From: Sulfurimonas sp. HSL3-7
GTDB taxonomy: Bacteria; Campylobacterota; Campylobacteria; Campylobacterales; Sulfurimonadaceae
Direction of reading: 5' to 3'
DNA: 64,000 nucleotides
Assembly: GCF_039645985.1 (NCBI RefSeq)
Contig: NZ_CP147919.1
Coordinates: forward strand, 124,001 to 188,000
In this document: piece by piece, positions 31,865-34,076 of the stretch
How positions within the stretch are numbered: position 1 is the stretch's first letter
Layout: every line of letters starts with the position of its first letter
Translations under genes and position numbers: made by a program
Notes under the pieces: generated by a model
What the model saw: the letters and a program-made list of their open reading frames with translations, nothing else
Databases searched by the model: none
What the model was told of the DNA's origin: nothing

Positions 31865-31922
31865 TTTTTGACGAAAATAATCCATATATATATTGACTTT
31901 TAACGTCAAAAAGCTCTATAAT
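31865..31922 (+). promoter_or_regulatory. Promoter with nested inverted repeats before the recombinase-like gene
   Basis: TTGACT (31893-31898) and TATAAT (31917-31922) are spaced 18 bp apart. A 9-bp perfect inverted repeat, TTTTTGACG (31865-31873) and CGTCAAAAA (31904-31912), and an inner pair TTGAC/GTCAA (31893-31897, 31905-31909) cover the -35 box and spacer, the position expected of a repressor or autoregulatory operator. Confidence 0.55.
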
Positions 31923-31959: not shown

Positions 31960-32625
31960 ATGGCAATTAGTTACATACGCCCAGATAAATATTTTGATGG
32001 CGCTTTCGAGCAGCTCAAAAGCATTAATGCTTATGCGCAGGCCAGCGGAATAGATATTACGGAAGAATATGTTGATCACACCTCGCAAAACAACACACTT
32101 GACGAGCGTGAAGATGTTGTCAAGTTTTTTAGAAGCAACCAGGGCCGGGATCTCCTGATCTCCGACATCTGGGTCTTAAGCAGCAATATAACCGATCTTT
32201 TACAGATGGTTGCCTGTCTTTTAAAAAACGAGATGCGTATTCATGTCATCAGTGCGGGTGTCGTGATCGATCAGAATAGCGACGTAATGTTGGTTTTAGG
32301 TATAATTGATCAACTACGTCAGGTGTTGGAGAGCAGAGAGAAGAAGATGATCGGACGCCCGAAAGGGAGCCGTTCCTCTTCGAAGTTCGATCCTTATCTG
32401 GACCTGATCATCGGGTACATTCGTGATAATATGAGTGTCAGTGCTATGGCAAGAGAACTGAAGGTCAGCCGAAGCTCCTTAAAAGACTATATCGAGTCAC
32501 GTGAGCTCAAAGAGGTTGCTAAAGGGCTGGTTACACTGGATGTCCCGGTTGATGCAGAACAAAAAGTGATAGGGACGATTGTCTGTCCCCATTCAGATAA
32601 AATTCAAGAGGAGTCAGAAGCATGA
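31960..32625 (+). CDS. Catalytically dead serine-recombinase-like DNA-binding protein
   Basis: A 221-residue protein laid out like a resolvase/invertase: an N-terminal domain (1-128) beginning SYIRPDK where active enzymes have YARVS, then GRPKGS (132-137, AT-hook-like) and a helix-turn-helix (about 145-180, MSVSAMARELKVSRSSLKDYI). The nucleophile Ser is Asp9, and the Asp-Arg-x-x-Arg block of resolvases is Trp71-Val72-x-x-Ser75, so strand exchange should be impossible; Arg7 and Arg50 remain. It overlaps ccoG by 4 bp (ATGA). It is most likely a transcription regulator made from a recombinase; that is inference. Confidence 0.72.
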   Translation: MAISYIRPDKYFDGAFEQLKSINAYAQASGIDITEEYVDHTSQNNTLDEREDVVKFFRSNQGRDLLISDIWVLSSNITDLLQMVACLLKNEMRIHVISAGVVIDQNSDVMLVLGIIDQLRQVLESREKKMIGRPKGSRSSSKFDPYLDLIIGYIRDNMSVSAMARELKVSRSSLKDYIESRELKEVAKGLVTLDVPVDAEQKVIGTIVCPHSDKIQEESEA

Positions 32626-34076
32626 GTGAAACAGTTGCTGTCGAGAAAAAATCGACAAAAGATTATTTAAAAGGGTGGATTCCATTTCGTATTATGCGTT
32701 ACTGGTTTTTCGGTTTAATAACCGTTTTTGCCCTGGTCGCGCCGTGGATTACGATAGAAGGAAATCACCTCTTCCTACTTTCATTCGACAAGCTGAAACT
32801 ACACCTTGCATTCGTGCAGTTCGATATGCAAGAGATGTATTTGATGCCGTTTGTCCTGATGATCATGTTCATCGGAATTTTCGGGCTTACTGTTGTCGGT
32901 GGGCGTGTCTTCTGTGGATGGATGTGCCCGCAGACGATCTTCCGTGTCATCTACCGTGACCTGATCGAGACAAAGCTACTGAAACTGCGAAAGCGTATTA
33001 AGAACAAGCAGAATGAACCGGATATGTCCAAGACGGAGAACAAGGTTAAAAAAGTGATCGCTGTCTTGCTCTGGACACTTCTGGCGTTTGTCGCAGCGGC
33101 GGATTTTTTATGGTATTTCGTACCACCTGAAGACTTTTTCGCCTACATGGCCAACCCGCTTGACCATATGGTACTTCTCGGATCACTGATCGGTATTGCG
33201 GCCTTCATTATTGTCGATGTCGTTATGATCAAAGAGAACTTCTGTATCTATGTCTGTCCTTACTCTCGTATTCAGTCGGTGCTTTATGATGACGATACGG
33301 TCATGGCAATCTACGATCCGCACCGAGGCGGAAAGATCTATGACGAGCATACAAAACTGTACACAAAAGAGAAGGATATCCGCGCGGCTGAACCGAATTC
33401 CGAGTGTACGGCATGTGAGTCATGTGTAACGGTCTGTCCGACGCATATTGATATCCGCCAGGGTCTGCAGCTTGAATGTATCAACTGTCTGGAGTGTGTG
33501 GATGCCTGTACGGCGGTTATGGGTAAACTCGGTAAAGAGAGTCTTGTCCGCTGGTCAAGTGACAAAGAGGTTCTTTATCAGAAAGGCAAGACCCGCTATT
33601 TCCGTCCGAAGGTGATCGGCTATGCGGTTATCCTTGTTATTGTGGCGGTTGTCCTGGGTCTTATGGGAAGTACAAAAGAACATATGCTGCTAAACATCAA
33701 TAAAGAGAGCCGTCTTTATGATGTCAAGACAACAGTTGATGGCGGAAAAGTTGTCGATAATGCCTATATCTTCCTGCTCCAAAATACGGAAAATGAAGAC
33801 CATAAATTCTATTTTGATATTATTACGCCGAAAGAGTATGAAGGCAAGATCAAGATCCAAAAACCTTCTGCACCGTTTAAAGCGAAGCCAGGCATTAAAA
33901 AGAAAAAAGTGGTCGTCCTCTATACGGATGAGATGATCGTGGACGATGCGACCAAAGATACGATCATTCCGATCACAATCAGAGCCTACGCGATCGATGA
34001 TAAAGAGCGCATAGTGGTTGACCGCCATACGACCTTTATCTTCCCGCGAAAAGATGTCTATGAGGCTGCCAAGTAG
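32622..34076 (+). CDS. ccoG: Cytochrome c oxidase accessory protein CcoG (FixG/RdxA)
   Basis: A 484-residue inner-membrane ferredoxin-like protein needed for cbb3 oxidase assembly; in Rhodobacter it is a cupric reductase. Five or so helices lie in the first 350 residues, with CGWMCPQ and CIYVCPYSRIQ in membrane-proximal loops, a two-[4Fe-4S] ferredoxin unit (CTACESCVTVCP, CINCLECVDAC), and a periplasmic Ig-like C-terminal domain (about 370-484). The start overlaps the recombinase-like gene. The rest of the cco operon is not in the window. Confidence 0.94.
   Translation: MSETVAVEKKSTKDYLKGWIPFRIMRYWFFGLITVFALVAPWITIEGNHLFLLSFDKLKLHLAFVQFDMQEMYLMPFVLMIMFIGIFGLTVVGGRVFCGWMCPQTIFRVIYRDLIETKLLKLRKRIKNKQNEPDMSKTENKVKKVIAVLLWTLLAFVAAADFLWYFVPPEDFFAYMANPLDHMVLLGSLIGIAAFIIVDVVMIKENFCIYVCPYSRIQSVLYDDDTVMAIYDPHRGGKIYDEHTKLYTKEKDIRAAEPNSECTACESCVTVCPTHIDIRQGLQLECINCLECVDACTAVMGKLGKESLVRWSSDKEVLYQKGKTRYFRPKVIGYAVILVIVAVVLGLMGSTKEHMLLNINKESRLYDVKTTVDGGKVVDNAYIFLLQNTENEDHKFYFDIITPKEYEGKIKIQKPSAPFKAKPGIKKKKVVVLYTDEMIVDDATKDTIIPITIRAYAIDDKERIVVDRHTTFIFPRKDVYEAAK

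Follow-up and report, generated by a model that had tools for sequence, protein, structure and literature searches.

Small serine recombinases, including the gamma-delta/Tn3 resolvases (TnpR) and invertases such as Hin and Mpi, share a fold, a domain order, an arm and helix-turn-helix (HTH), and binding sites made of inverted half-sites. Resolvases are DNA benders, and TnpR, when bound to its sites, represses the promoter of its own gene. The persulfide sensors SqrR, BigR and CstR are repressors with conserved cysteines that act at sqr- and rhodanese-type genes. For the comparison with these sensors, BigR is taken from PMC5823870. The conversion of a recombinase into a repressor is represented by MrpR (YopR), the master repressor of the Bacillus prophage SPbeta, which has the fold of the tyrosine recombinases and has lost catalysis (PMC10516654). 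Serine recombinases have been recruited for inversion and excision, as described in a review of domesticated mobile elements, the passages of which considered here contain no dead serine recombinase acting as a regulator (PMC8987985). A review of respiratory regulation in the phylum mentions no recombinase or resolvase (PMC6682613), and searches of an open-access library gave no description of the family considered here.

The window, that is, the whole stretch of 64,000 nucleotides from Sulfurimonas sp. HSL3-7 that was analysed, carries on its forward strand a gene for a 221-aa protein (31960-32625) and, directly downstream on the same strand, ccoG (32622-34076; TIGR02745, E 6e-140), which encodes a membrane iron-sulfur protein and cupric reductase of cbb3 oxidase biogenesis. 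CcoG aids the delivery of copper to cbb3 oxidase (PMC8267372). The two genes overlap by ATGA, so that ccoG starts within the stop of the upstream gene. From comparison of sequences, we consider it likely that the 221-aa protein is a domesticated, catalytically dead serine recombinase which acts as an autorepressor and thereby as a repressor of ccoG, as well as of a gene related to sulfide:quinone oxidoreductase (SQR-like) and probably of a rhodanese gene, and that its cysteines are most likely the sensors of a thiol-reactive signal.

The origin of the predicted regulator is apparent at several levels. The single protein matches the Pfam Resolvase family PF00239 above the cut-off (E 2.3e-6); its matches to the Mpi invertase family and to HTH models are weak. 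A phmmer search of the PDB with the same protein gave chance-level matches only, so that a family profile was needed; this profile matched the Tn552 Sin-type recombinase (2r0q), gamma-delta resolvase (1gdt) and TP901-1 integrase. An AlphaFold model built with 8 sequences (mean pLDDT 59.7, below 50 in the C-terminal tail), usable for the N-terminal domain only, was matched by Foldseek to the catalytic domains of Tn3, gamma-delta, Sin and TP901-1, with an rmsd of about 2.5 A to Sin over about 100 residues.

The active site is lost. Compared with gamma-delta resolvase, Ser10 is replaced by Asp9, Asp67 by Trp71, Arg68 by Val72 and Arg71 by Ser75, and the window protein keeps the equivalents of Arg8 (R7) and Arg45 (R50) only. 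Among 93 aligned non-redundant orthologues, with identity down to about 30%, the equivalents of Arg8 and Arg45 are kept in 86 and 92, respectively, serine occupies the nucleophile position in none, Asp67 and Arg71 each have a counterpart in one, Arg68 has a counterpart in none, and the full set of Asp67, Arg68 and Arg71 occurs in none. A preliminary description of this locus had read the resolvase fold with its HTH, Asp9 in place of the catalytic serine, the Trp71-Val72-x-x-Ser75 block and the ATGA overlap directly from the DNA, and all of these are confirmed, by the profile and Foldseek matches with the conserved arm and HTH, by the gamma-delta alignment and by the coordinates of the open reading frames. 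It had also considered that a serine nucleophile might lie elsewhere in the protein or that homologues might have intact sites: the alignment of 93 sequences shows no other conserved nucleophile accompanied by a complete set of arginines, and the related recombinases with intact YxRVST and LxRLGRS motifs that do exist form a distinct group which is not linked to ccoG. Judged by these defining features, the protein would no longer function as a serine recombinase, yet it is descended from that family.

The residues that are invariant in all 93 orthologues are Q18, C86, the GRPxG motif, S139, S141, D144, R171, S173, D176, S180, R181 and C209. Cys86 (codon at 32215-32217, forward strand, as for the following features) belongs to the helix that follows the loop of the former active site. 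The arm motif GRPKGSRSSSKFD (residues 132-144; 32353-32391), a predicted minor-groove contact, contributes G132, R133, P134 and G136 along with S139, S141 and D144, and the HTH SVSAMARELKVSRSSLKDYIESR (residues 159-181; 32434-32502) contributes R171, S173, D176, S180 and R181. Cys209 (32584-32586) lies in the C-terminal tail, mostly within a Cys-Pro pair. Exactly two cysteines, C86 and C209, are present in 58 of the 93 proteins. Thus, with the catalytic residues lost and the DNA-binding and cysteine residues invariant, conservation has moved to the DNA-binding half of the protein and to two thiols. A further, divergent orthologue upstream of ccoG, in addition to the 93 (genome G531, family f14; L147/L175), has lost the tail with Cys209, and its upstream operator also looks degenerate.

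With dN/dS of about 0.05 (within the genus, dN is 0.07-0.15 and dS is near saturation), the regulator is, by its substitution pattern, under purifying selection, and this value, together with conservation across the order, rules out a decaying pseudogene. A regulator gene split by a frame disruption beside an intact ccoG was seen in one genome (G269; L158, L174) and represents either a recent loss that is still under way or a mistake in the assembly. Cargo of a mobile element is likewise ruled out, given that there is no phage match and that plasmid resolvases are merely 22-26% identical.

The regulator is present once per genome in 109 of the 151 genomes of the window's family, a count that includes 3 weak or partial matches, and in 202 of the 399 genomes of the order, a group of mostly sulfur-oxidising bacteria, where weak matches to other recombinases are included; in the profile search, orthologues score at E of about 1e-50 or better and other recombinases at about 1e-23 or worse. 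The searched genomes are partly metagenome-assembled (MAGs), and the close relatives include MAGs deposited as Helicobacteraceae or Campylobacterales. In 100 of 100 loci from about ten families, picked by the recombinase and not by ccoG, the regulator immediately precedes ccoG in the same orientation, which is the synteny that the preliminary description had suggested looking for among homologues; seven of these loci (L002-L008) duplicate, for the most part, genomes that another collection contributed as L009-L015. Genomes without the regulator keep ccoG alone. The protein distances of the regulator and CcoG are correlated (Mantel r 0.85; 0 of 999 permutations), as expected for vertical co-inheritance. 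An ATGA overlap is the usual arrangement only in the window's genus and in a small number of others; outside those genera, the genes are adjacent and co-directional, with a spacing, as judged by homology, of about -46 to +152 nt.

Upstream of the regulator gene lies a predicted operator, an inverted repeat of TGACGAAAATA and TTTTAACGTCA that spans 40 bp from outer end to outer end (31869-31908, forward strand) and is conserved at 89 of the 93 orthologues. It is laid across a promoter (31893-31922, forward strand) with a -35 hexamer TTGACT (31893-31898), an 18-bp spacer and a -10 hexamer TATAAT (31917-31922), the top promoter match of the region at 11/12, which falls within the segment 31865-31922 that had been named earlier as a candidate binding region. 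The right half-site lies within the spacer and, across the orthologous promoters, ends 7-8 bp before the -10 hexamer. The consensus, TGACGAwAAAA...TTTTwTCGTCA, consists of symmetrical half-sites 38-40 bp outer to outer across the -35 and -10 hexamers, and in the 89 promoters the length is 39 bp in 66, 40 bp in 14 and 38 bp in 9. The operator core is found in 85 of the 93 promoters compared with 0.6% of shuffled sequences, the -35 element TTGAC is present in 77 promoters, and of the 81 orthologous promoters in which a TTGA hexamer occurs, 78 have a spacer of 17-18 bp. In the inspected genomes without the regulator, no operator was found upstream of ccoG. From this placement over the promoter, we infer a classical repressor site. 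In family f1 (e.g., L018 and L036), a third TGACG half-site, TAnAATGACGATGAAA, follows directly after the -10 hexamer, 12-13 bp past the operator; such a half-site is present in 40 of 89 aligned promoters, and the window has no exact copy of it.

Pattern searches of whole genomes delineate a small predicted regulon. The 2.87-Mb genome of the window contains exactly 2 strict composite sites, one at the regulator promoter and the other at 2518467-2518505, upstream of a 392-aa SQR-like flavoprotein. All 8 genomes examined in the genus, the window's and 7 others, have 2 strict sites each, and the reversed pattern has almost none. The second site recurs across genera: among 20 second sites from other genomes, 16 lie immediately before the SQR-like gene. 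At L271 and L272, the site is followed first by a NifX-like gene and further down by an SQR-like gene; at L274 it is followed by a NifX-like gene only, and the site at L269 is cut off by the end of its contig. Ten further sites are linked to SQR- or NifX-like genes; among them are NifX-like targets from another family (L318, L319). The SQR-like protein retains counterparts of Cys124 and Cys347 of Aquifex SQR and lacks the central catalytic Cys156, in the numbering of the Aquifex enzyme. The gene for this flavoprotein (region L195:7589-9740; counterparts in L258-L277 and L318-L328) often travels with the NifX-like gene and a conserved gene for a 130-aa protein. A rhodanese gene in the genus of the window is also preceded by a 39-bp TGACG/CGTCA inverted repeat, here without a -35 hexamer (L196:3004-3042; L308-L313); this repeat is degenerate in some relatives. 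Families f4, f6, f7 and f18 usually show the self/ccoG site only, so that the SQR link is lineage-specific.

The presence of SQR-like, NifX-like and, in the genus, rhodanese genes gives the predicted regulon a common theme of sulfur and copper redox. The preliminary description had proposed a recombinase turned into a regulator of cbb3 oxidase or copper delivery, and possibly of itself. The assignment to ccoG, copper delivery and autoregulation is strongly supported by the synteny, by an active site that was lost while the protein stayed under purifying selection, and by the operator at the regulator's own promoter. The two invariant cysteines, which do not figure in that description, hint at the chemistry of sensing. 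The cbb3 structural genes have to be dropped: there is no operator near ccoN (258199) in the window genome, so that control of ccoNOQP is not supported, and these genes are outside the predicted regulon.

We envisage a transcription factor that would have evolved from a small serine recombinase of the resolvase/invertase type and would no longer cut DNA. A dimer would use the resolvase arm and the HTH to bind a pair of TGACGAwAAAA half-sites in inverted orientation, whose outer ends are 38-40 bp apart, and, with the right half-site between -35 and -10, the bound protein should block RNA polymerase at its own promoter, resulting in autorepression. As the second gene of the operon, ccoG would be controlled through co-transcription with the regulator; the SQR-like flavoprotein with its NifX-like neighbours would be controlled additionally in the window's family, and the rhodanese probably also in the window's genus. 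C86 and C209 would most likely sense persulfide or sulfane sulfur, Cu(I) or an oxidant, releasing repression; that they form a thiol switch is the more speculative part of the scheme. Predicted targets such as CcoG, the SQR-like protein and rhodanese would suit alike a sensor that responds to reactive sulfur, to copper or to redox state.

Unlike TnpR, Hin and Mpi, this protein has lost the catalytic residues and has no associated mobile element and a fixed partner, ccoG, and it has two invariant cysteines, a C-terminal tail and a 39-bp operator on metabolic genes. The likeness to MrpR is that a recombinase fold without catalysis would here, too, have become a DNA-binding repressor, whereas MrpR has the tyrosine and not the serine recombinase fold and regulates phage lysogeny, not metabolism. 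The resemblance to SqrR, BigR and CstR would be a functional analogy, with the predicted operators at SQR-like and rhodanese genes and the two invariant cysteines, possibly a pair, in the regulator described here; those sensors have ArsR- or CsoR-type folds unrelated to recombinases, in contrast to the resolvase fold.

The strongest competing interpretation concerns the signal: the cysteines might bind a metal, such as Cu(I) or Zn, or sense oxygen or an oxidant rather than persulfide, making the protein a copper or redox sensor that would match the role of CcoG. With ccoG as the universal neighbour, the part that CcoG plays in supplying cbb3 oxidase with copper (PMC8267372) and two invariant cysteines, this is possible, and we place it on the doubtful side of even, because the recurrent second target is SQR-like and the genus adds a rhodanese, both of which point to sulfur, and because the 93-sequence alignment has no invariant histidine or further cysteine that would complete a metal site within the monomer.

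It is less probable that the same dead recombinase acts at the same operator as an activator or in an architectural role, by bending or bridging DNA. The SQR-like promoters L331-L334, from genomes with the regulator, keep the repeat and lack a -35 hexamer, and bending would be in line with the general behaviour of resolvases; we nevertheless judge this unlikely, given that the regulator's own promoter retains near-consensus -35 and -10 hexamers at 17-18 bp spacing with the operator across them, the look of a repressor target.

A regulator of ccoG and the SQR-like genes could control the recombinase gene too, and the 39-bp repeat would then be the operator of another transcription factor, with the dead recombinase merely one of its targets. 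Among genomes of the family that are at least 90% complete, the strict site is present in 68 of 82 with the regulator and in 1 of 37 without it (Fisher 8e-18, phylogeny ignored), and the sole exception in the latter group is a GC-rich match. A self-site can vanish trivially with its gene, so the promoter of the SQR-like gene, which is not linked to the regulator, provides a more telling test. Where the SQR-like gene is kept and the regulator is absent, an operator occurs within 220 bp in 0 of 17 genomes (four genera; phylogeny ignored), the best matches having 3-5 mismatches, as in shuffles. By comparison, 9 of the 11 genomes that have the regulator and no strict SQR-linked site show the repeat at two mismatches or fewer, 8 of them at one or none, with one of the nine (G016) probably a chance match; in the regulator-containing genomes G009 and G003, no SQR operator is recognisable. 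The lack of the operator at the unlinked SQR-like gene where the regulator is missing argues that the dead recombinase itself reads it in trans. In addition, a resolvase-type dimer whose arm carries GRPKG is well matched to half-sites that are inverted and have an A/T tract next to TGACG, and control by another factor appears quite improbable.

A surviving recombinase that uses another nucleophile on the inverted repeat, for which only the conserved Arg8 and Arg45 equivalents (86 and 92 of 93) speak, can be practically discounted, as Ser10 and Arg68 are absent from all 93 orthologues and the Asp67/Arg68/Arg71 set is complete in none, the repeat occupies one promoter-proximal position in every genome seen, and the related enzymes in which YxRVST and LxRLGRS are intact form a distinct group away from ccoG.

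If the repressor reading is true, this would be, to our knowledge, the first dead serine recombinase to serve as a chromosomal metabolic regulator, with MrpR as the nearest parallel. A concrete operator and regulon make sulfur and copper sensing in the order, and the tie of cbb3 copper delivery to sulfur metabolism, testable, and genes annotated as 'recombinase family protein' beside metabolic operons may conceal more such regulators. A broader proposal, to which we assign somewhat less than an even chance, is that these proteins represent an undescribed family of one-component factors, dead serine recombinases that, as two-cysteine sensors of reactive sulfur or copper, would couple respiratory copper delivery to sulfide oxidation across the order, and that a second, independent domestication controls rplI-hslVU in another family of the order.

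The latter case involves another resolvase-fold protein with a degraded active site in family f9 (L160, L161, L162 and L164; e.g., L160:2194-2832), which has Asn or Ser at the nucleophile position and LNVFGRT in place of LDRLGRD. Its assignment to the diverged orthologues of the ccoG-linked regulator was rejected in favour of a separate family, possibly an independent domestication. The two resemble each other in the resolvase fold, the degraded active site and the fixed position upstream of a housekeeping operon; the f9 protein differs in its partners, rplI-hslV-hslU, in lacking the cysteine pair, in keeping an arginine at the Arg71 position and in its upstream motif. It precedes rplI-hslV-hslU in 4 of 4 loci, which share an upstream motif around AACATTTTGTATAA.
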